A DNA stretch of 64,000 nucleotides from Manis javanica (lineage: Eukaryota; Chordata; Mammalia; Pholidota; Manidae), in NCBI RefSeq assembly GCF_040802235.1, contig NC_133166.1, positions 868,001 through 932,000 on the forward strand. Reading direction: 5' to 3'. The position numbers and the translations under genes are program-made. Under the pieces are notes generated by a model that saw only the letters and a list, made by a program, of their open reading frames with translations, did not search any database and was not told the DNA's origin. Positions within the stretch are counted from its first letter, which is position 1. The number at the start of each line of letters is the position of its first letter. Of this stretch, positions 1 to 58,944 are shown one piece after another.

Positions 1-217
1 TCCTTTTCCCTTTGTCAACTTTTAGTCCATTCTAGGGTTCTGTGAGTCTGCTGGTGTTTTGTTCCTTCAGTTTCTGCTTTGTTCTTATGCTCCACAGATG
101 AGGGAAATCATTTGGTACTTGTCTTTCTCTGCCTGCCGTATTTCACTGAGCATAATACCCTCTAGCTCCATCCATGTTGTTGCAAATGGTAGGAAGAAAA
201 CCATCCATTTTTAATTC
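1..217 (-). mobile_element. L1 ORF2 3'-end fragment
   Basis: Read on the minus strand, this piece encodes the C-terminal end of L1 ORF2p (the residues around [12 protein letters not shown] and YQMISLICG) followed by the start of the 3' UTR. It is the same region that ends the two larger L1 copies in this window. The left end runs off the window, so its full size is unknown. It is a dead fragment. Confidence 0.85.
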
Positions 218-11947: not shown

Positions 11948-11962
11948 AAAATTATTAATAAT
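11948..11962 (+). repeat. Target-site duplication, 5' copy (L1 copy 1)
   Basis: AAAATTATTAATAAT lies immediately before the L1 5' end and is repeated perfectly at 20,056-20,070. The junction T/AAAA fits the L1 endonuclease cleavage preference. It is AT-rich, but a 15-base perfect match exactly at both ends is unlikely by chance. Confidence 0.85.
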
Positions 11963-11971
11963 GGGTTGGGA

Positions 11972-11985
11972 GCCAAGATGGCGGC
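11972..11985 (+). promoter_or_regulatory. YY1-like site at L1 5' end
   Basis: GCCAAGATGGCGGC begins ten bases into the L1. Human L1 has a YY1 site at nearly the same place that directs accurate initiation at +1. Presence here supports a complete, promoter-bearing 5' end. Confidence 0.75.
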
Positions 11986-12300
11986 GTGAGTAGAGCAGCA
12001 GAAATCTCCTCCCAAAACCACATTTATCTATGAAAATATAACAAAGACAACTCTTCCTAAAATAGAGACCAGAGGACACAGGACAACATCCAGACCACAT
12101 CCACACCTGCGAGAACCCAGCGCCTCGCAAAGGGGGTAAGATATAAGCCCCAGCCCGGCAGGACCCGAGCGCCCCTCCCCCTGGCTCCCGGTGGGTGGAA
12201 AGGAGTCAGCAAGGAGGGCTAGGGAGCCCAGGACTGCTGAACACCCAGTCCTAGGATTCCAGACCAGAGCGCAGACACAGTGCATGTGTGGGGTCCTGGG

Positions 12301-12612
12301 TACTAGGGAAACAGGGCGGCAGGACCAGTGAGCGGGTGCCTGAGGCCAACACCAGAGAACAAAGTAACGGGAGCGGCCTTTTTTTTTTTTTTTTCTCGGC
12401 TAGTGCTTTTTGGAAGTCTTAAAGGGACAGGGACCCTAATACTAGAGAAACGGGGAAGCAAGACAGGTGAGTGGGTGCCTGAGGACAAAGAAAATCGTGC
12501 ATTTTTCTTTTTTTAAAATTATTTATTTAAATTTTTTTTTCTTTTGTTGTTGCTGTTGTTGTTTTGGTTTGGAGAGTGCTTTTTGGAAGTCTTAAAGGGG
12601 CAGGACAGGACA
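12301..12612 (+). repeat. Tandem duplication in the L1 5' UTR
   Basis: Two diverged tandem units are visible. Unit 1 (about 12,301-12,439) and unit 2 (about 12,440-12,612) each start with a TACTAG-GAAAC-like motif, contain GGGTGCCTGAGG, a T-rich tract, and end in GTGCTTTTTGGAAGTCTTAAA followed by GGG. Unit 2 is longer because its T-rich/TTG tract is expanded. The arrangement resembles a two-monomer promoter. Confidence 0.7.
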
Positions 12613-12957
12613 CTTAGTCCAGAGGCAGGGAATCTGGGGATCTCTGGGCACTCTAACCCCCTGGGCAGCAGGGAGCACAGAGGCCCCTTATGGAGATAAA
12701 TAGCCTCCATGCCGCTCCCCCTCCAACGGGGCTCCACCATTTTGGAGCAGCAGCCCGAGCCAGGTCACGCCCACAGCAACAGCGGATATTAACTCCATAG
12801 CAGCTGGGGAGGAAGCAGAAGCCCAGTCTGTGCACAGCTGCCCAGCACAAGCCACTAGAGGTCGCTATTCTCCCAGGAGAGGAAGGCCACAAACCAACAA
12901 GAAGAGAAGTTCTTCCAGCCGTCACTATTCCCAGCTCTGCAAACTATCTCTATCACC

Positions 12958-13815
12958 ATGAAAAGACAAAATTACAGGCAAACCAAGATCACAGAGACAA
13001 CACCTGAGAAGGAGACAGACCTAACCAGTCTTCCTGAAAAAGAATTCAAAATAAAAATCATGAACATGCTGACAGAGATGCAGAGAAAAATGCAAGAGCA
13101 GTGGGATGAAGTCCGGAGGGAGATCACAGATGTCAGGAAGGAGATCAAAGAAGTGAAACAAACCCTGGAAGGATTTATAAGCAGAATGGATAAGATGCAA
13201 GAGGCCATTGAAGGACTAGAAACCAGAGAACAGAAACGTATAGAAGCTGACATAGAGAGAGATAAAAGGATCTCCAGGAAAGAAACAATACTAAGAGAAC
13301 TATGTGAACAATCCAAAAGGAACAATATCCATATTATAGGGGCACCAGAAGAAGAAGAAAGAGGAAAAGGGATAGAAAGTCTCTTTGAAGAAATAATTGC
13401 TGAAAACTTCCCCAAACTGGGGGAGGAAATAATCGAACAGACCACGGAAATACACAGAACCCCCAACAGAAAGGATACAAGGAGGACAACACCAAGACAC
13501 ATAATAATTAAAATGGCAAGGATCAAGGACAAGGAAAGAGTTTTAAAGGCAGCTAGAGAGAAAAAGGTCACCTATAAAGGAAAACCCATCAGGCTAACAT
13601 CAGACTTCTCAACAGAAACCCTACAGGCCAGAAGAGAATGGCATGATATATTTAATGCAATGAAACAGAAGGGCCTTGAATCAAGGATACTGTATCCAGC
13701 ACGACTATCATTTAAATATGAAGGAGGGATTAAACAATTCCCAGACAAGCAAAAGTTGAGGGAATTTGCCTCCCACAAACCACCTCTACAGGGCATCTTA
13801 CAGGGACTGCTCTAG
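12958..13815 (+). CDS. L1 ORF1 protein, intact (285 aa)
   Basis: ORF1p is the RNA-binding, nucleic-acid chaperone protein of L1. It trimerises and coats the L1 RNA in cytoplasmic particles. The start ATG has a good context (ACCATGA). Residues about 30-115 are a charged coiled coil (many E/K heptads, for example RREITDVRKEIKEVKQTL). The RRM-like domain spans about 118-195 (NNIHIIGAPEEEERGKG, ENFPKL). The C-terminal domain covers about 196-265 (HIIIKMARIKDKERVLKAAR, RILYPARLSFKYEGG). The length is shorter than human ORF1p (338), mainly in the N-terminus and coiled coil. No stop or frameshift is seen. A 168-base spacer separates it from the first ATG of the ORF2 frame. Confidence 0.9.
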   Translation: MKRQNYRQTKITETTPEKETDLTSLPEKEFKIKIMNMLTEMQRKMQEQWDEVRREITDVRKEIKEVKQTLEGFISRMDKMQEAIEGLETREQKRIEADIERDKRISRKETILRELCEQSKRNNIHIIGAPEEEERGKGIESLFEEIIAENFPKLGEEIIEQTTEIHRTPNRKDTRRTTPRHIIIKMARIKDKERVLKAAREKKVTYKGKPIRLTSDFSTETLQARREWHDIFNAMKQKGLESRILYPARLSFKYEGGIKQFPDKQKLREFASHKPPLQGILQGLL

Positions 13816-13983
13816 ATGGGAACACTCCTAAAAAGAGCACAGAACAAAACACACAATATATGAAGAATGGAGGAGGAGGAATAAGAAGGGAGAGAAGAAA
13901 AGAATCTCCACACAGTGTATATAACAGCTCAATAAGCGAGCTGAGTTAGGCAGTAAGATACTAAAGAGGCTAACCTTGAACCT

Positions 13984-16900
13984 TTGGTAACCACGAATCT
14001 AAAGCCTGCAATGGCAATAAGAACATATCTCTCAATAGTTGCCCTAAATGTAAATGGACTGAATGCACCAATCAAAAGACCCAGAGTAGTAGAATGGATA
14101 AAAAAGCAAGACCCATCTATATGCTGCTTACAAGAAACTTACCTCAAACCCAAAGACATGTACAGACTAAAAGTCAAGGGATGGAAAAACATATTTCAGG
14201 CAAAAAAGAGTGAGAAGAAAGCAGGGGTTGCAATACTAATATCAGACAAAATAGCCTTCAAAACAAAGAAAGTAACAAGAGATAAAGAAGGACACTACAT
14301 AATGATAAAGGGCTCAGTCCAACAAGAGGATATAACCATTCTAAATATATATGCACCCAACACAGGAGCACCAGCATATGTGAAACAAATGCTAGCAGAA
14401 CTAAAGAGGGAAATAGACTGCAATGCATTCATTTTAGTAGACTTCAACACACCACTCACCCCAAAGGATAGATCCACTGGGCAGAAAATAAGTAAGGACA
14501 CACAGGCACTGAACAACACACTAGAACAGATGGACCTAATAGACATCTACAGAACTCTACATCCAAAAGCAACAGGATACACATTCTTCTCCAGTGCACA
14601 TGGAACATTCTCCAGAATAGACCACATACTAGGCCACAAAAGAGCCTCAGTAAATTCAAAAAGATGGAAATCCTACCAACCAACTTTTCAGACCACAAAG
14701 GCATAAAACTAGAAATAAATAGTACAAAGAAAGCAAAAAGGCTCACAAACACATGGAGGCTTAACAACACGCTCCTAAATAATCAATGGATCAATGACCA
14801 AATCAAAATGGAGATCCAGCAATATATGGAAACAAATGACAACAACAACACTAAGCCCCAACTACTGTGGGACACAGCAAAAGCAGTCTTAAGAGGAAAG
14901 AATATAGCAATCCAGGCATATTTAAAAAAGGAAGAAAATCCCAAATAAATGGTCTAACATCACAATTATCAAAATTGGAAAAAGAAGAACAAATGAGGCC
15001 TAAGCTCAGCAGAAGGAGGGACATAATAAAGATCAGACAAGAAATAAATAAAATTGAGAAGAATAAAACAATAGCAAAGATCAATGAAACCAAGAGTTGG
15101 TTCTTCGAGAAAATAAACAAAATAGATAAGCCTCTAGCCAGACTTATTAAGAGGAAAAGAGAGTCAACACAAATCAACAGTGTCAGAAACGAGAAAGGAA
15201 AAATCATGACGGACCCCACAGAAATACAAAGAATTATTAGTGAGTACTATGAAAACCTATATGCTAACAGGCTTGGAAACCTAGGAGAAATGGACAACTT
15301 CCTAGAAAAATACAACCTTCCAAGACTGACCCAGAAAGAAACAGAAAATCTAAACAGACCAATTACCAGCAATGAAACTGAAGCAGTAATCAAAAAACTA
15401 CCAAAGAACAAAACCCCCGGGCCAGATGGATTCACCTCAGAATTTTATCAGACATACAGGGAAGACATAATACCCATTCTCCTTAAAGTTTTCCAAAAAA
15501 TAGAAGAGGAGGGGATACTCCCAAACTCATTCTATGAAGCTAACATCACCATAATACCAAAACCAGGCAAAGACCCCACCAAAAAAGAACTACAGACCAA
15601 TATCCCTGATGAACGTAGATGCAAAAATACTCAACAAAATATTAGCAAACCGAATTCAAAAATACATCAAAAGGATCATACACCATGATCAAGTGGGATT
15701 CATCCCAGGGATGCAAGGATGGTACAACATTGGAAAGTCTATCAACATCATCCACCACATCAACAAAAAGAAAGACAAAAATCACATGATCATCTCCATA
15801 GATGCTGAAAAAGCATTTGACAAAGTTCAACATCCATTCATGATAAAAACTCTCAGCAAAATGGGAATAGAGGGCAAGTACCTCAACATAATAAAGGCCA
15901 TCTATGATAAACCCACAGCCAACATTATATTGAACAGCGAGAAGCTGAAAGCTTTTCCTCTGAGATCGGGAACTAGACAGGGATGCCCACTCTCCCCACT
16001 GTTATTTAACATAGTACTGGAGGTCCTAGCCACGGCAATTAGACAAAACAAAGAAATACAAGGAATCCAGATTGGTGAAGAAGAAGTTAAACTGTCACTA
16101 TTTGCAGATGACATGATACTATACATAAAAAACCCTAAAGACTCCACCCCAAAACTACTAGAACTGATATTGGAATACAGCAAAGTTGCAGGATACAAAA
16201 TCAACACACAGAAATCTGTGGCTTTCCTATACACTAACAATGAACCAACAGAAAGAGAAATCAGGAAAACAACTCCATTCACAATTGCATCAAAAAAAAT
16301 AAAATACTTAGGAATAAACCTAACCAAGGAAGTGAAAGACTTATACTCTGAAAACTACAAGTCACTCTTAAGAGAAATTAAAGGGGACACTAACAGATGG
16401 AAACTCATCCCATGCTCGTGGCTAGGAAGAATTAATATCGTCAAAATGGCCATCCTGTCCAAAGCAATATACAGATTTGATGCAATCCCTATGAAACTAC
16501 CAGCAACATTCTTCAATGAACTGGAACAAATAATTCAAAAATTCATATGGAAACACCAAAGACGCCGAATAGCCAAAGCAATCCTGAGAAAGAAGAATAA
16601 AATAGGGGCGATCTCACTCCCCAAGTTCAAGCTCTACTATAAAGCCATAGTAATCAAGACAATTTGGTACTGGCACAAGAACAGAGCTACAGACCAATGG
16701 AACAGACTAGAGAATCCAGACATTAACCCAGACATATATGGTCAATTAATATTTGATAAAAGAGCCATGGACACACAATGGTGAAATGACAGTCTCTTCA
16801 ACAGTTGGTGCTGGCAAAACTGGACAGCTACATGTAGGAGAATGAAACTGGACCATTGCCTAACACCATATACAAACATAAACTCAAAATGGATCAAAGA

Positions 16901-17820
16901 CCTGAATGTAAATCATGAAACCATTAAATTCTTGGAAAAAACATAGGCAAAAACCTCTTAGACATAAACATGAGTGACCTCTTCTTGAACATATCTCCCC
17001 GGGCAAGGAAAACAACAGCAAAAATGAACAAGTGGGACTATATTAAGCTGAAAAGCTTCTGTACAGCAAAAGACACCATCAATAGAACAAAAAGGAACCC
17101 TACAGTATGGGAGAATATATTTGAAAATGACAGATCTGATAAAGGCTTGATGTCCAAAATATATAAAGACATCAACAAACAAAAACAAATAACCCAATTA
17201 AAAAATGGGCAGAGGAACTGAACAGACAGTTCTCTAAAGAAGAAATACAGATGGCCAACAGACACATGAAAAGATGCTCCACATCGCTAATTATCAGAGA
17301 AACACAAATTAAAATTACAATGAGATATCATCTCACACCAGTAAGGATGTCTGCCATCCAAAAGACAAACAACAACAAATGTTGGCGAGGCTGTGGAGAA
17401 ACGGGAACCCTCCTACACTGCTGGTGGGAATGTAAATTAGTTCAACCATTGTGGAAAGCAGTATGGAGGTACATCAAAATGCTCAAAACAGACTTACCAT
17501 TTGACCCAGGAATTCCACTCCTCGGAATTTACCCTAAGAATGTAGCAATCAAGTTTGAGAAAGACAGATGCACCCCTATGTTTATCACAGCACTATTTAC
17601 AATAGCCAAGAATTGGAAGCAACCTAAATGTCCATCGGTAGATGAATGGATAAAGAAGATGTGGTACATATACACAATGGAATACCACTCAGCCATAAGA
17701 AGAGAGCAAATCCTACCATTTGCAGCAACATGGATGGAGCTGGAGGGTATTATGCTCAGTGAAATAAGCCAAGTGGAGAAAGAGAAATACCAAATGATTT
17801 CACTCATCTGTGGAGTATAA
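13984..17820 (+). pseudogene. L1 ORF2 (endonuclease / reverse transcriptase), broken
   Basis: ORF2p normally nicks target DNA and reverse-transcribes L1 RNA. The likely native start is the ATG at 14,011 (MAIRTYLSI). The endonuclease domain follows, with ALNVNGLN, the LQETYL acidic residue and IYAPN; the usual GDFN is VDFN. The RT domain runs to the FADD catalytic motif (about 16,100). The C-terminal zinc-like motif CX3CX7HX4C is present (about 17,380-17,440). Lesions: one-base losses near 14,655, 14,936, 16,938 and 17,182 (three in A-runs), a two-base loss near 15,592, and a TGA at 16,782-16,784 after IQW/TQW. The TGA is shared with copy 2, but the A-run losses near 16,938 and 17,182, which can be compared, are not. 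This copy cannot make full-length ORF2p. Confidence 0.9.
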
Positions 17821-18160
17821 GAACAAAGGAAAAACTGAAGGAACAAAACAGCATCAGAATCACAGAACTCAAGAATGGACTAACAGATACCAAAGGGAAA
17901 GGGCCTGGGGAGGATGGGTGGGGTAGGGAGGGATAAAGGGGGGGAGAAGAAGGGGGTATTAAGGTTAGCATGCATGGGGAGTGGGAGAAAGGGGAAGGCT
18001 GTACAACACAGAGAAGACAAGTAGTGACTCTACAACATTTTGCTATGCTGATTGACAGTGACTGTAAAGGGGTTTAAAGGGGGGACCTGGTATAGGGGAG
18101 AGCCTAGTAAACATAATATTCATCATGTAAGTGTAGATTAATGATAACAACAAAAAAAAA
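17821..18160 (+). other. L1 3' UTR with G-rich tract
   Basis: This is the ordinary L1 3' UTR right after the ORF2 stop. It includes a purine/G-rich tract at about 17,894-17,956 with many runs of three or more G that could form a quadruplex, as known in L1 3' UTRs. It ends in an A-rich block (18,148-18,160), which looks like the original L1 tail before the retroviral segment begins. The related sequence is present in copy 2 (about 25,580-25,880). Confidence 0.8.
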
Positions 18161-19472
18161 TCAGTTCCTGTGTGGTGACCTCCAATGAGTTCTACACAAT
18201 GGTATAAAGGGCATATAAAAGTGTAGGCAAAGGGTTTGTTTGTGCTTATACAGAGGATCAAAGCCTAATTTGGCTACCCCGAAAATGAGCTAAGATACAA
18301 TATGAAAAAGAACTTCCAACATCAGCACTCTTTGGAAGACTCATGCCAGAAGATGATCATCAAAAAACCTCCACAAAGATCCAGGCGATGCTACAGGTGT
18401 AGATGCACTCATCCCACCCGTTCCTGGACTTGCCATGGGAATGAAGAAGGAGATATCTAAGCTGGCCTGTGCATACAGTAAAGCAACAAATTTGACTGGA
18501 TCTACACTGTTGGAACTCAACCAAGAATTAGGAGAAGTGCAAATTGTAGCACTCCAAAATCTTACAACTACATACTATTTACTGTTAAAAGAACATATGG
18601 GATGTGAACAGTCCACAGGAATGGGTTGTTTTAATTTGTCTGATTTCTCTCAGACTGTTCAAGTTCAGTTGGACAATATCCACCATATCATAGATAAGTT
18701 TTCACAAATGCCTAAGGCGCCTAACTGGTTATGTTGGTTTCACTGGAGATGGCTGGTAATTATAAGTATGCTTTGGTTATGTAACTGTATTCCTATTATG
18801 TTAATGTGTGCACGCAATTTAATTAGTAGTTTAAAACCTATACATGCTGAAGTTACTATACAAGAAGATATGTCAAAGAAATAATCAATCTTCCCATGTT
18901 TTCTTCCGCCTGCTACTTCTATAGCTTTTCTTCTTCCTTCCTAATTACAACCCTTAAATAGAATTCGTGCCTCATATCGAATTTACCGTGTATCACAATT
19001 CTTCCAAGTGGTAAAGATACCTCAAGACAAATGCTGGGCATAGAAGCCACAGGTCATAAATATGCATAGAAGTAAAAAACTAACCTTTTCAAACAATAAA
19101 GCTTCTCTCTCACTTACCAACTTTACATTTCCCTGTATGGCTCCGGAAGATGACTGGTTAGCCAGAGACAGGTAAGATTCCTCAAGGGAGGAACAACATA
19201 AGACAGGCACAGTCGCCAGGGGGCCATCAGGTGAGGAATTGGGGATCAATAGAGGTGATGCTTAGAACCTCCCCCAACCTGTTCTGAGAGAAATCTGCTG
19301 CGTCTGTGGATGTTTTATTGCCCTTGTCTAGCTTGGATTAACACATAGTCTACAGGCACATACCCGATCATCTACATTTGCTCACTTACAACACTAAACT
19401 ATGTTTTCTACCTTTATCTTGCATCTACCTACCACTTCAGCATTTTATTAAAAATAATAATAAAGAGAGAAA
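18161..19472 (+). other. Retroviral 3' segment carried by L1 (env to PPT)
   Basis: Beginning just after the L1 A-rich block, this segment has no L1 homology. It carries an env transmembrane reading frame (18,435-18,884), then about 580 bases of untranslated retroviral sequence, then a purine tract (TAAAGAGAGAAA) that meets an LTR start at 19,473. The same order appears in copy 2. The 5' SU part of env and gag-pol are missing. Confidence 0.8.
18435..18884 (+). pseudogene. ERV env transmembrane fragment in L1 (copy 1)
   Basis: An open frame of 149 codons resembles the TM subunit of a retroviral envelope. From the N-terminus it has a helical heptad-type stretch with LQN (about residues 35-45), a short cysteine loop (about 55-65) and the downstream FNLSD. 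A Trp-rich membrane-proximal region follows (about 95-105), then one hydrophobic span (about 107-126) and a short tail ending in MSKK. The loop has the spacing of the CX6CC motif of gamma-type Env proteins, but the first Cys of the pair is Gly. The same change is in copy 2. The frame extends upstream without a stop for some codons but there is no SU subunit, signal peptide or cleavage site. This is a relic part of an envelope, not a complete one, and I see no evidence that it is translated. Confidence 0.75.
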
Positions 19473-19790
19473 TGTGGTATCCACATATAAATCAAGTATA
19501 AAAATCAAACGAATATTCATATTTGAACTGACTGTTTATAGTTCATAATGCATGATCAAAACCGAAAGTTTCTGTGATGAATGCCCTTGTACTGTTCACC
19601 ATGTAACTTATTCACTATGTAAGAATTTGTTCTCCATGTAAGAACTTGTTCGTTATGCTTCAGAAGATTGGAGACTGATGAAAATTAAGCGTGGGGTGGA
19701 TTAATGATTATACATTGAACATTGAGTCCCCTATACAGAATTTTATTGTTGTTAACAAACATTTGATAAAAAAAAAATAGGAGAGATGCC
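19462..19790 (+). mobile_element. Polypurine tract and 3' LTR fragment (copy 1)
   Basis: A purine run precedes TGTGGTATCCAC at 19,473, as a polypurine tract precedes a retroviral 3' LTR. About 300 bases of LTR (U3 and the start of R) follow, ending near GAGAGATGCCCTCAC and then a TAAA-repeat tail. At the place where copy 2 has AATAAA (minus strand 23,782-23,787), copy 1 has an A-run after CATTTGAT. No complete LTR end with CA is visible. Confidence 0.7.
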
Positions 19791-20050
19791 CTCACAAAAA
19801 TAAATAAATAAATAAAATTAAAAAATAAATAAATAAATAAAATAAAGTACACACTTCCAATTGTAAAATAAGTAAGTAACCGGGATGTAATGTATAGCAT
19901 AAGGAATATAGTCAAAATATTGTGACAACTTGGTATGGTGATAGCTGGTACCTAGAATTATCGTGCATATAAATGTTCAATCACTGTGTTGTACACCTGA
20001 AACTAATGTAATACTGTATGTCAACTACCCTTCAATAAAAAACAATTATT
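19791..20050 (+). mobile_element. Transduced older L1 3' end with poly(A)
   Basis: A TAAA-repeat tract (about 19,796-19,845) is followed by a diverged L1 3' end (TACACACTTCCAATTGTAAA to CAACTACCCTTCAATAAAAA) with its own AATAAA. It lies inside the 15-bp target duplication, so it arrived with the main L1. The same block is antisense at 8,215 and sense at about 42,150, so it is a common old tail. Confidence 0.75.
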
Positions 20051-20055
20051 TAAAA

Positions 20056-20070
20056 AAAATTATTAATAAT
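20056..20070 (+). repeat. Target-site duplication, 3' copy (L1 copy 1)
   Basis: AAAATTATTAATAAT directly follows the poly(A) and matches 11,948-11,962 exactly. It marks the right end of the 8.1-kb insertion. Confidence 0.85.
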
Positions 20071-23693: not shown

Positions 23694-23710
23694 CTCCCAT
23701 GGGTAATTTT
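23694..23710 (+). repeat. Target-site duplication, left copy (L1 copy 2)
   Basis: CTCCCATGGGTAATTTT next to the T-run matches CTCCCATGGCTAATTTT at 27,260-27,276 with one mismatch. It bounds the second chimeric L1. Confidence 0.85.
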
Positions 23711-23769
23711 TTTTTTTTTTGGAGAACAGTGTGAGATTTATTTATGTATTTATTTATTTTTTTGAGAGG

Positions 23770-24681: not shown

Positions 24682-25092
24682 TTAAGCATGTATAGGTTTT
24701 AAACTACTAATTAAATTGCACACACACATTAATATAATAGGAATACAGTTACATAACCAAAGCAGATCTATAATTACCAGCCTTCTCCAGTGAAGCCAAG
24801 AAAACCAGTTAGGCACCCTAGGCATTTGTGAAAATTTGTCTATGATATGATGGATATTGTCCAACTGTACTTGAACAGTCTGAGAGAAATCAGACAAATT
24901 AAAACAACCCATTCCTGGGAACTGTTCACATCCCATATGTTCTTTTAACTGTAGATAGTCTGTAGTCATAAGATTTTGGAGCGTTACAACTTGCACTTCT
25001 CCTAATTCTTGGTTGAGTTCCAACAGTATAGATCCAGTCAAATTTGTTGTTTTACTGTATGCACAGGCCAGCTTAGATATTTCCTTCTTCAT
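24682..25092 (-). pseudogene. ERV env transmembrane fragment in L1 (copy 2)
   Basis: The counterpart of the env fragment of copy 1, with an open frame of 136 codons. Compared by eye with copy 1 it has no indel and about 20 amino-acid changes. It keeps the LQN-type helix, the cysteine loop with Gly in place of the first paired Cys, the Trp-containing membrane-proximal region and one hydrophobic span. A G-to-T change turns the Glu codon after PIHA into TAA, removing the last 13 residues. It is a relic with no SU subunit. Confidence 0.75.
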
Positions 25093-25382
25093 TCCAATGG
25101 CAAGTCCAGGAACCGGTGGGATGAATGCATCTACACCTGTAGCAGCGCATGGATCTTTGTTGGGGTTTTTTGATGATCATCTTCTGGCATGAGTCTTCCA
25201 GAGAGTGCTGATGTTGGAAGTTCTTCTTCATATCGTATCTTAGTTCATTTTCTGGGTAGCCAAATTAGGCTTTGATCTTCTGTATAAACACAAACAGACC
25301 CTTTGCCCACACTTTGATATGCCCTTTATACCATTGTGTAGAACTCATTGGAGGTCACCACACAGGAACTGCTTCTTTTTTT

Positions 25383-25529
25383 TTAAGAGAAAGGAATATT
25401 ATCAGAAAAGTGTACCTCCATAGCCGATCACCTGACACCCTTTAAGTGATCAAAATTAAGGATATTTAAAGCATGCATTAATCATTGATTTACCATTAGT
25501 TTTATCCTATCAAGAAGTAATCTCCCTTT

Positions 25530-25569
<40 letters not shown>

Positions 25570-25580
25570 TTTTTTTTTAA
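25383..25580 (-). repeat. Extra junction segment and (GAAA)n in copy 2
   Basis: Between the L1 3' UTR and the retroviral segment, copy 2 has about 190 bases absent from copy 1. They include a (TTTC)n/(GAAA)n microsatellite at 25,528-25,578 and about 140 bases of unique sequence flanked by A-runs on the minus strand. In copy 1 a single A-run joins the two parts directly. Confidence 0.8.
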
Positions 25581-25888
25581 TCTTTAATCTACACTTACAT
25601 GAAGAATATTATGTTTACTAGGCTCTCCCCTATACCAGGTCCCCCCTATAAACCCCTTTACAGTCACTGTCCATCAGCATAGTAAAATGTTGTAGAATCA
25701 CTACTTGTCTTCTCTGTGTTGTACAGCCCTCCCCTTTCTCCCTCCCCCTATGCATGCTAATGTTAATACCCCCTTATCCCTCCCTACCCACCCATCCTCC
25801 CCAGTCCCTTTCCCTTTGGTACCTGTTAGTACATTTTTGGGTCCTGTAATTCCACTGCTGTTTTGTTCCTTCAGTTTTTTCTTTGTTC

Positions 25889-27259
25889 TTATACTCCACA
25901 GATGAGTGAAATCATTTGGTATTTCTCTTTCTCTGCTTGGCTTATTTTGCTGAGCATAATACCCTCCAGCTCCATCCATGTTGCTGCAAATGGTAGGATT
26001 TGCCCTCTTCTTATGGCTGAGTAGTATCCAATTGTGTATATGTACCACATCTTCTTTATCCATTCATCTACCGATGGACATTTAGGTTGCTTCCAATTCT
26101 TGGCTATTGTAAATAGTGCTGCAATAAACATAGGGGTGCATCTGTCTTTCTCAAACTTGATTGCTGCGTTCTTAGGGTAAATTCCTAGGAGTGGAATTCC
26201 TGGGTCAAATGGTAAGTCTGTTTCGAGTATTTTGATGAACCTCCATACTGCTTTCCACAATGGTTGAACTAATTTACATTTCCACCAGCAGTGTAGGAGG
26301 GTTCCCGTTTCTCCACAGCCTCGCCAACATTTGTTGTTGTTTGTCTTTTGGATGGCAGCCATCCCTACTGGTGTGAGGTGATATCTCATTGTAGTTTTAA
26401 TTTGCATTTCTCTGATAATTAGCAATGTGGAGCATCTTTTCATGTGTCTTTTGGCCATCCGTATTTCTTTTTTGGAGAACTGTCTGTTCAGTTCCTCTGC
26501 CCATTTTTTAATTGGGTTATTTGTTTTTTGTTTGTTGAGGCATGTGAGCTCTTTATATATTCTGGACGTCAAGCCTTTATCGGATCTGTCATTTACAAAT
26601 ATATTCTCCCATACTATAGGGTTCCTTTTTGTTCTATTGATGGTGTCTTTTGCTGTACAAAAGCTTTTCAGCTTAATATAGTCCCACTTGTTCATTTTTG
26701 CTGTTGTTTTCCTTGCCCGGGGAGATATGTTCAAGAAGAGGTCACTCATGTTTATGTCTAAAAGGTTTTTGCCTATGTTTTTTTCTAAGAGTTTTATGGT
26801 TTTATGACTTACATTCAGGTCTTTGATCCATTTTGAATTTACTTTTGTGTATGGGGTTAGACAATGGTCCAGTTTCATTCTCCTACATGTAGCTGTCCAG
26901 TTTTGCCAGCACCATTTGTTGAAGAGACTGTCATTTCACCATTGTATGTCCATGGCTCCTTTATCAAATATTAATTGACCATATATGTTTGGATTAATTT
27001 CTGGAGTCTCTAATCTGTTCCACTGGTCTGTGGCTCTGTTCTTGTGCCAGTACCAAATTGTCTTGATTACTATGGCTTTGTAGTAGAGCTTGAGGTTGGG
27101 GAGTGAGATCCCCCCTACTTTATTCTTCTCTTTCAGGATTGCTTTGGCTATTCGGGGTCTTTGGTGTTTCCATATGAATTTTTGAATTATTTGCTCCAGT
27201 TCATTGAAGAATGTTGCTGGTAATTTGAGAGGGATTGCATCAAATCTGTATATTGCTTT
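25889..27259 (-). pseudogene. L1 ORF2 C-terminal part (copy 2)
   Basis: Minus-strand coding for the end of the RT/thumb region and the whole C-terminal segment. The last 329 codons (25,889-26,878) are open and keep the CX3CX7HX4C motif ([18 protein letters not shown]). An in-frame TGA at 26,936-26,938 follows MDIQW at the same codon as in copy 1. The A-run deletions that break copy 1 after that point are absent here. The 5' end is truncated at 27,259, so it has no endonuclease or RT active site. Confidence 0.88.
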
Positions 27260-27276
27260 CTCCCATGGCTAATTTT
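27260..27276 (+). repeat. Target-site duplication, right copy (L1 copy 2)
   Basis: CTCCCATGGCTAATTTT directly follows the truncated L1 5' end and pairs with 23,694-23,710. Confidence 0.85.
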
Positions 27277-31043: not shown

Positions 31044-31971
31044 ATGGAGAATAGCACAGAAGTGCCGGAGTTCCTCCTTTAGGATTAACAGAGGACCCTG
31101 ATCTTTGAGTTCCCTTCCTCCTGGTGTTCTGTTCATCGACCTCATCACACTGGATGGGAATGGGGAGCTGATGGTGGTCATCCTGTCAGATGCCCACCTC
31201 CACACTCCCAGATGTTTCTTCAATAACCTCTCCCTTGTAGACGTGGGCTATTCATCGGCCGTAGCTCCTAAAATGGTGGATGCAGTCAGGGAACAAAGTC
31301 ACCTCCTTCGGTGGAGGCTCTGCACAGTTGTTCTTCTCTGCGGGTGTGGCACTGTCTAGTGTTACCTCCTGGCCTCCAAGGCTTGTGACTGCCATGCCGC
31401 CATGTGCTGGTGGCTTTAGTACTCCAGTACCATGACCTTGGGTGTGTGTGCTCTCCTGGCCATTGGCTCTATGTCTGGCTTCTTCAATGCTTCCATCCAC
31501 ACAGCAGACACCTTCACGCCCTCCTTCTGTGGGTCTCATGAGATTAATCATTTTTTCTGAGATGTCCCCCACCCTGGCTGGCTCCTCCTCTGGCACACAG
31601 CGGGGATTTGACTGTAATGCCTTGTTGTGGGCTTCATCTTTCCCACCTTCCTGGTCATCCGCATCTTTTACCTCTTCTTATCTATAGCCATCAAAGGCTG
31701 CATTCTGTTGAAGGATGGAGGAAGGCCTTCTCCACCTGCATCTCCCGTCTCACTGCCGTCTCCATCTTCTACGGCACCATCCTCTTCATACCTGTAGCCC
31801 AGATCCAGCCAGTCTGTGGACACTGACAAAATCACATCTGTGTTTTACACTGTGGTGATTCCCATGTTGAATCCCTTACTCTACAGCCTCAGGAACAAAG
31901 ATGTGAAAAATGCTGTCTGGAAAATTCTCAACAAACTTTACCCACAATCTTCAAATGTGAGTAAGAAGTAG
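31044..31971 (+). pseudogene. OR5B21: Olfactory receptor pseudogene, OR5B21-like
   Basis: A decayed single-exon odorant receptor. It opens with ATG and MENSTEV. It ends with a well-kept TM7 and tail ([20 protein letters not shown], then [13 protein letters not shown]), which resembles the OR5B21 C-terminus I remember rather than OR5B12. Middle landmarks are still readable: [24 protein letters not shown] and QSVDTDKI. Damage includes a frameshift with TAG at codon 13 (31,080-31,082), several more frameshifts through TM1-TM3, DRY degraded to DCH in CDCHAAMC, stops in the second loop, and a disrupted TM6 region. It sits between LPXN and the OR5B12-like gene on the same strand, the place of OR5B21 in human. 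It cannot encode a receptor. Confidence 0.9.

Positions 31972-38166: not shown

Positions 38167-38227
<61 letters not shown>
38167..38227. repeat. (AT)n microsatellite, about 60 bp
   Basis: About 30 uninterrupted AT units. It is the longest simple repeat in the window and probably variable in length. Confidence 0.95.
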
Positions 38228-42144: not shown

Positions 42145-42344
42145 GGCACAAGCTTCCAATTATAAAATAATCAGTCACAGGAATGGAAGTACAGCCTAGG
42201 GAACAGGGCCAACGATATTGTGGTATCTTGGTTTAGTGACAGATGGTAACTACTCCTACCTTGCTGAGCATTTCACAGTGTATGTAATTGCTGAACTGCT
42301 ACGTCATAATCTGAAGCCAATATAATATTGTATACCAACTATAT
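42145..42344 (+). mobile_element. Old L1 3' end, left part (interrupted)
   Basis: CAAGCTTCCAATTATAAAAT, GGAAGTACAGCCTAGGGAAC and TATTGTATACCAACTATA are a diverged L1 3' end. A younger L1 piece interrupts it at 42,344; it resumes at 42,757. Confidence 0.75.
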
Positions 42345-42756
42345 TATGCTCAGTGAAATAAGTCAGGCAGAGAAAGACAAATGCCAAATGATTTCCCTCA
42401 TTTGTGGAGTATAACCATGAAGCAAAACTGAAGGAACTAAGCAGCAGCAGACTCACAGACTCCAAGAAGGGACCAGCAGTTACTAAAGGAGTGGGGGAGG
42501 GCAGGTGGGGAGGGAGGGAGAAGGGGACAGAGGGGTATTATGATTAGTGCACATGGTGTGTGTGGGGTCAGGTGGAAGACAGTGTAGCACAGAGGAGAAA
42601 AGTAGTGACTCTGTGGCATCTTACTATGCTGATGGACGTGTCTGCAATGGGGTATGAGAGAGGACTCAAATAATACGGATGAATGTAGCAACCACATTGC
42701 TTTTCTTGTGAAACCTTCATAAGAGTGTTTATCAATAATACCTTAATAAAAAAATG
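42345..42756 (+). mobile_element. Short L1 insertion nested in the old L1
   Basis: About 412 bases, from the ORF2 C-terminus (TATGCTCAGTGAAATAAGTC) through the L1 3' UTR with its G-rich tract to a tail ending CTTAATAAAAAAATG. It is bounded by a perfect 17-base duplication, TTGTATACCAACTATAT, at 42,328-42,344 and 42,757-42,773. It is a 5'-truncated L1 lacking the retroviral extension. Confidence 0.85.
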
Positions 42757-42773
42757 TTGTATACCAACTATAT

Positions 42774-57990: not shown

Positions 57991-58944
57991 ATGGTCCCCC
58001 AGGAGAACAGTACAGAGGTGACCGAGTTCATTCTGGTGGGGCTGACTGACGACCCGGAACTACAGATCCCGCTATTCATTCTCTTCTCGCTCATCTACCT
58101 CATCACTGTGGTTGGGAACCTGGGGATGATCATGCTGATCCTGCTGGACTCTCGGCTCCACACCCCCATGTACTTGTTCCTCAGTAACCTGTCTCTGGGG
58201 GACTTCGGTTACTCCTCAGCTGTCACTCCCAAGGTGATGGCAGGATTCCTCACAGGAGACAAGGTCATCTCCTACAGTGCGTGTGCCACCCAGCTCTTCT
58301 TCTTTGCAGCTTTTATCACTGTAGAAGGTTTCCTCTTGGCTGTAATGGCCTATGACCGCTACGCAGCCGTGTGTAAACCCCTGCATTACACCACCACCAT
58401 GGCGACAAGTGTGTGCGCCTCCCTGGCTGCAGGCGCCTACGTGTGCGGTTTCCTGAACGCCTCCATCCACACTGCGAACGTTTTCAGGCTCTCCTTCTGT
58501 AGATCCAATGTGGTTGATCACTTTTTCTGTGACGTTTCTCCTCTCCTGGCTCTCTCATGCTCAGACCACTACATCAGTGAGATGGTTGTTTTTTTTGTGG
58601 TGGGTTTCAATGCCCTGTTTACCGTCCTGGTCATCTTGTCCTCCTACCTGTTCATATTTATCACCATCCTGAGGATGCGCTCATCTGAAGGACGGCAGAA
58701 GGCCTTTTCCACCTGTGCGTCCCACCTCACCGCCATCTCCATCTTCTACGGGACAGGCATATTCATGTACTTACAGCCCAGCTCCGGCCGTTCTGTGGGA
58801 ATAGACAAGGTGGCGTCTGTGTTCTATACTGTGGTCATCCCCATGCTGAATCCGCTGGTCTACAGCCTCCGGAACAAGGAGGTCAAGAGTGGCTTTAAGA
58901 AGGCGGTGGGGAAGGCAAAGTGTTCAATAGCGTTCATGCTTTAA
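57991..58944 (+). CDS. OR5B12: Odorant receptor, OR5B12-like, intact
   Basis: A class II odorant receptor, a seven-helix G-protein-coupled receptor of olfactory neurons; ligand unknown. The 317-codon single exon is complete. An N-glycosylation site NST is at residues 6-8. TM1 has GNLGMI (42-47), then [17 protein letters not shown] (56-72) where most ORs have PMYFFL. C98 is the conserved TM3 cysteine. [15 protein letters not shown] (119-133) is the G-protein contact motif. [10 protein letters not shown] starts TM6 and [12 protein letters not shown] ends TM7. The sequence is very close to human OR5B12 as remembered, including [13 protein letters not shown] near the C-terminus. A short VPQ insertion follows the start Met. 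The next ATG downstream is far inside, so this start is the only sensible one. No stop or frameshift. Close paralogues such as OR5B2 or OR5B3 are the main alternative. Confidence 0.93.

Follow-up and report, generated by a model that had tools for sequence, protein, structure and literature searches.

The window, a 64,000-nucleotide stretch of Manis javanica DNA, contains two related LINE-1 (L1) elements, referred to here as copies A and B, whose parts are listed in Table 1. Copy A lies on the plus strand and is a full-length L1 that spans 11,963-20,055 and is flanked by an exact 15-bp target duplication. Its ORF1 carries the L1 RNA-binding domains (Transposase_22, 4.5e-25; Tnp_22_dsRBD, 8.2e-21), while the pieces of its broken ORF2 encode an endonuclease (Exo_endo_phos, 8.6e-17) and a reverse transcriptase (RVT_1, 6.4e-48), all above the Pfam cut-off. 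The insertion has the target duplication and A-tail of a LINE-1, and the implied nick is TTTT/A, the usual site of the L1 endonuclease. An initial annotation had placed an element at 17,821..20,055 within one 15-bp duplication; the duplication is indeed exact, but the L1 starts at 11,963 and 17,821 is only the start of its 3' UTR. The 5' UTR of copy A also contains a 30-bp direct repeat (12402-12431 and 12575-12604, 96.7% identity).

In both copies, the L1 3' UTR passes through its A-rich end into pieces of a retrovirus, arranged as integrase remnant, env TM, polypurine tract and LTR U3-R. The TM frame of copy A matches solved retroviral env TM ectodomains in PDB (5h9c, 7e-7; 4jpr, the ASLV fusion TM, 7.3e-7; 4n21, 1.2e-4) and has no Pfam match. 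The integrase remnant was recognized through a 26-residue piece of copy B (25,248-25,325) that matches PF00552 (IN_DBD_C) at E 0.0032, below the Pfam curated cut-off, and integrase matches in PDB appear only at E 0.66 and above. Judging from the order of the pieces, SU appears to be missing between the integrase remnant and TM. Where the LTR AATAAA is kept, the LTR ends after U3-R, 18 bases past this signal, at the point where a retroviral RNA would be polyadenylated. Neither copy has the two LTRs with U5 and the short target duplication of a provirus: the LTR stops at R and is followed by an A-rich block. Since no two-LTR provirus was found, the LTR reading rests on the TG start, the polypurine tract and the position of AATAAA. 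A pattern scan of viral contigs, in a set that may omit records of the window's own genome, gave 0 matches.

The earlier description of an L1 running directly into env TM, a polypurine tract and an LTR thus had the order right, but it missed that the retroviral part begins in integrase and apparently lacks SU. Similarly, the LTR that it took as the end of copy A is present, but the last ~205 bp of the element (henceforth the second tail) are the 3' end of another L1 and not LTR. We rejected the idea that these 205 bp are a local old L1 outside the element, as they lie inside the target duplication of copy A and recur in its relatives.

Copy B is a 5'-truncated L1 on the minus strand, running from 27,259 down to 23,711 within its own 17-bp target duplication (one mismatch), which bears out the claim that the same order occurs on the other strand with a different target duplication. 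The flanks of the two copies do not align. Identity between A and B is ~92-93% over late ORF2, the L1 3' UTR, TM, the polypurine tract and most of the LTR, falling to 87% at the far LTR end. Between L1 and TM, copy B is longer than copy A by ~190 bp, made up of the GAAA block and integrase sequence, and it lacks the second tail. At 23720-23763, between the A-rich block of the LTR and the final A-tail, copy B has a short extra stretch, which may derive from its source locus by a very short transduction.

Table 1. Features of copies A and B and of older L1 relatives in the window.
Feature	Position	Strand	Basis or remark
Copy A, 5' target duplication	11948..11962	+	15/15 match to 20,056-20,070
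Copy A, L1 body (5' UTR, ORF1, broken ORF2, 3' UTR)	11963..18147	+	
Copy A, ORF1, open	12,958-13,815	+	within L1 body
Copy A, ORF2 pieces (broken)	13,957-14,706; 15,555-16,784; 17,167-17,820	+	
Copy A, L1 3' UTR	starts 17,821	+	
Copy A, A-rich join of L1 and retroviral part (A-type junction)	18148..18161	+	sequence
Copy A, integrase C-terminal remnant and stretch after it; SU apparently missing	18162..18356	+	homologous frame of B matches IN_DBD_C
Copy A, env TM frame, 175 open codons	18357..18884	+	PDB TM ectodomain matches
Copy A, polypurine tract	19460..19472	+	sequence
Copy A, LTR, U3-R only, AATAAA lost	19473..19795	+	TG start after polypurine tract
Copy A, second tail (3' end of another L1)	19847..20051	+	AATAAA at 20,034-20,039; inside target duplication of A
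Copy A, 3' target duplication	20056..20070	+	pairs with 11,948-11,962
Copy B, 5'-side target duplication	27260..27276	-	17 bp
Copy B, L1 (late ORF2 and 3' UTR)	25581..27259	-	alignment to A
Copy B, A/GAAA block at L1 end (B-type junction)	25522..25580	-	sequence
Copy B, integrase remnant, including ~130-bp stretch absent from A	25248..25520	-	PF00552
Copy B, env TM frame (open piece)	24685..25176	-	
Copy B, LTR U3-R with AATAAA	23764..24048	-	sequence
Copy B, A-tail, short extra stretch and A-rich block after LTR	23711..23763	-	sequence
Copy B, 3'-side target duplication	23694..23710	-	1 mismatch to 27,260-27,276
Older L1 relative without fusion	42342..42760	+	AATAAA at end
Older L1 relative without fusion, 3' end left of window	1..194	-	79% to A

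The proposal that a fused element had spread as a subfamily predicts many dispersed copies that share the junction. An exact pattern for the A-type junction matched 644 times genome-wide (326 forward, 318 reverse), compared with 0 matches for the reversed control. With a 500-bp query spanning the join, a first look turned up 7,481 candidates; 40 were scored, and every one of them covers the join. The 39 besides copy A do so at 94-96%, and all 40 lie on 17 contigs. For the B-type junction, a 131-bp query returned 745 first-look candidates, the best 40 of which scored at 98-100%. We fetched a first sample of 20 loci, up to 10 kb each, made up of 19 of the next-best matches to copy A and one more in order; being among the best matches to A, this sample is biased to A's branch.

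We then weighed whether A and B are instead parts of a segmental duplication, or whether their target duplications arose by chance. Such duplications do occur in this family: two of the fetched loci, L024 and L025, lie ~1.2 Mb apart on contig C19 in opposite orientation with an identical truncation point and target duplication, and are a segmental duplicate pair. L025 was therefore dropped as the duplicate of L024, leaving 21 copies, including A and B, for the independence test. A target duplication score of at least 10 was reached by 18 of 21 real flank pairs (all but L021, L022 and L027) but by only 5 of 420 mispaired ones, and the target duplications differ among the sampled copies. With different duplications and different flanks, A and B cannot be products of a segmental duplication, and we give this reading practically no credence. 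Because the target duplications differ and the copies form a near-star tree, the family is a retrotransposed L1 lineage and not a segmental duplication. Both findings that would have undone the initial annotation, a junction confined to a segmental duplication and spurious target duplications, thus failed to appear, with the L024/L025 pair counted once, and the chimera did spread as a lineage.

A second view of A-type copies came from 15 loci hand-picked at steps along the chromosome-C1 part of the A-type junction listing, which covers the first matches, on C1 and C2. All 15 carry the L1 3' UTR, integrase remnant, TM and LTR. The second tail is present in 12 of these loci and in 18 of the 20 fetched first; in the other three C1 loci (L033, L036 and L043), an A-tail or A-rich block stands at the LTR poly(A) site and is followed by flank. 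From the best 40 matches of the 131-bp query we chose eight B-type loci, all of which contain the L1 3' UTR (partial in L050), the extra integrase stretch, TM and the LTR. An A/GAAA block like that of copy B stands at the L1 end in six of the eight. An A-rich tail and then flank follow the LTR in six of eight as well, which are all those with the LTR end displayed: the sequence of L045 stops short, and L049 is without the motif used.

The retroviral part upstream of the LTR was used to build a midpoint-rooted tree of 44 copies, in which a single branch (support 100/99) separates 32 tail-branch copies from 12 without the second tail. Within the branch of 32, L009 and L027 ended early and have no tail. 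We read this single split as one gain of the second tail. The A-type copies lack ~190 bp that B-type copies have between two A-runs, an absence that probably reflects a loss. L033, L036 and L043 have the short A-type join but no second tail, and they fail to cluster in the tree; the short join therefore does not indicate a single origin, and the ~190-bp loss between A-runs probably recurred.

How the fusion came about can be approached through the ends of unfused relatives. Both older L1 relatives in the window stop where the fusion starts; the one at the left edge has the same end point as the join, with an A-rich tail and no retroviral part. Near the join itself, neither AATAAA nor ATTAAA was found within 75 bases before the anchor in 33 of 34 A-type copies, L018 being the exception with one signal inside its A-run (L014 is without the anchor, and copy B was omitted as its 75 bases fall in integrase). 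In copy B the end of the L1 still has an ATTAAA, so that this copy has not entirely lost the signal of the L1 itself. Of 19 A-type copies inspected at the LTR, 10 still have its AATAAA and 9 do not; 14 of the 15 C1 loci have it. The AATAAA of the second tail is present in all 18 tails, including that of copy A. Copies without the tail end at the LTR poly(A) site, and part of the tail-bearing branch is without the LTR AATAAA. From their sequence context, the LTR and tail signals would both be in use, and the counts of signals kept and lost at the L1 end, the LTR and the tail point to a relay of poly(A) signals.

We propose, with a probability of about 0.7, serial 3' transduction accompanied by a relay of poly(A) signals, in which a lineage of L1 elements took over a retroviral 3' end for its own termination and one of its branches later took over another 3' end. 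As the first step, an L1 would have inserted in sense orientation within the integrase part of a defective, SU-less ERV. L1 RNA would then have passed its own weak end and been cleaved at the LTR poly(A) signal, yielding an RNA with the integrase remnant, TM, polypurine tract and U3-R. The chimera dispersed to many loci by L1-style insertion, and A-type elements, which lack the ~190 bp between two A-runs, would have lost them. In one branch, a second transduction would have placed the 3' end of another L1 (~205 bp) after the A-rich block of the LTR; part of this branch lost the LTR AATAAA, and its RNA would then end at the new signal. The elements have the hallmarks of 3' transduction: within the target duplication, the L1 A-tail is followed by additional sequence that ends in an A-tail of its own. 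The transduction already suggested by the initial annotation is supported by the site of the join, which follows an A-rich block at the point where the ancestral L1 ended, although a template jump gives the same product. Against the proposal also count the ATTAAA that copy B keeps, the broken ORF2 of every full-length copy examined (10 of 10) and the ungrouped tail-less copies with the A-type join.

Template-jump chimeras are known for other RNAs. Such chimeras are named as possible in the accessible part of PMC6500023. Here, the L1 reverse transcriptase would have been primed on the retroviral poly(A), copied the retroviral RNA into integrase and jumped to the A-tail of L1 RNA, after which the product would have spread in the same manner. 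A jump of this kind predicts the join that is seen, in which retroviral sequence with an arbitrary 5' start comes after the A-rich block of the L1. The place of the join, where the ancestral L1 ended and after an A or GAAA block, is also what read-through predicts, and a jump would look no different. The second addition likewise comes after an A-rich block, and a single mechanism, read-through acting twice, accounts for both additions more simply. We therefore regard a template jump as unlikely.

The serial transduction that we prefer would have acted on a lineage whose 5' side was not constant. Among the full-length copies, five are A-like (A, L018, L020, L021 and L026) and five are of another kind (L013-L016 and L022). 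Divergence between the two groups is 15-24% across the 5' UTR and the start of ORF1, yet from ~14,660 on, through the retroviral part, it is only 3-6%, the same as within a group. Comparison of window positions 11963-14660 with L013, L014, L015, L016 and L022 reveals two 5' halves (5' UTR, ORF1 and endonuclease) with a switch near 14,660. The same 3' half thus stands behind two different 5' halves, and 5' ends were exchanged within the lineage. This exchange, the second tail and the start of the retroviral part in integrase had all gone unnoticed in the initial annotation. A broader and more tentative proposition, to which we give somewhat less than even odds, is that L1 lineages can evolve by a relay of captured terminators: an element's own signal would decay and that of the LTR take over, until the signal of a second L1 replaced it and the LTR's decayed as well, with free exchange of 5' halves throughout. 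In that case the working terminator of a successful lineage would be the retroviral end, which would be no passenger.

The end branches of the retroviral part have a median length of 0.022 changes per site in the 44-copy tree and 0.015-0.017 in the first sample. At the average mammal rate of 2.2e-9 per year (PMC4643047, accessible part), which may not be the host's own, this corresponds to an age of about 7-10 million years. None of the 10 full-length copies examined has an open frame longer than 525 codons, so each of them has a broken ORF2. ORF1 and ORF2 are under constraint, with pN/pS of 0.45 for ORF1 (10 copies), 0.41 for the reverse transcriptase piece (11 copies) and 0.47 (0.36-0.64) for the ORF2 C-terminus (16 copies).

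The TM frame might have been retained as a third protein of the lineage, given that it is open in copy A, has no in-frame stop in 13 of 21 copies and gives a pN/pS of 0.79 in pairs with copy B. In the same pairs, however, shifted frames of the TM stretch gave 0.54 and 0.71, such that the true frame is not the lowest and composition evidently moves the measure. Pooled over 21 copies, the TM frame has a pN/pS of 1.03 (95% interval 0.73-1.53), compared with 0.47 at the ORF2 C-terminus. No sign of constraint is seen in the TM frame, which by itself does not prove neutrality, and on these pN/pS values we rejected its retention as a protein, a very improbable reading.

L1 3' transductions have mostly been viewed as passengers of single source elements, but here a retroviral addition appears to have been fixed as the 3' end of a lineage, in which another addition later superseded it. 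As in the transduction groups of human L1 and SVA, a single target duplication encloses the element together with DNA from downstream, which lies behind the A-tail and runs as far as a downstream poly(A) signal (PMC12593883, accessible part). They differ from L1 3' transductions in that a retroviral 3' end was fixed in the lineage, with hundreds of exact junctions, followed by a second addition in one branch. The closest architecture is SINE-R of SVA, which consists of the 3' end of env and the 3' LTR of HERV-K10 and serves as the element's 3' end (accessible part of PMC12593883), as env and LTR sequences do here. The parallel is L1-borne, however: SVA is non-autonomous and its SINE-R derives from HERV-K10, whereas here an L1 is the carrier and TM matches ASLV-type ectodomains. 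The 5' parts of SVA (hexamer, Alu-like and VNTR) were not found, the 5' side being an L1 with ORF1 and ORF2 pieces. The chimeric L1 (cL1) of mouse Axin1 likewise joins an L1 piece to an LTR, but was engineered for an experiment, while the pangolin elements form a natural, spreading lineage (PMC6500023, accessible part). The pangolin MPERV1 and MPERV2, compared by description only, are mammalian ERVs, and the accessible part of PMC4643047 does not mention an L1 chimera for them. In the literature searched, no L1 lineage was seen in which a retroviral 3' end had become fixed, although the element may already sit in repeat databases under an L1 name. As a natural record of L1 3' end replacement, the lineage makes it testable whether L1 3' ends are passive or selected.

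Elsewhere in the window, positions 38167-38227 form a palindromic simple repeat that is its own reverse complement in 6-base steps. Two further stretches, 31709-31898 and 58686-58877, are related to each other (76%) and by eye look like possible pieces of olfactory receptor genes.
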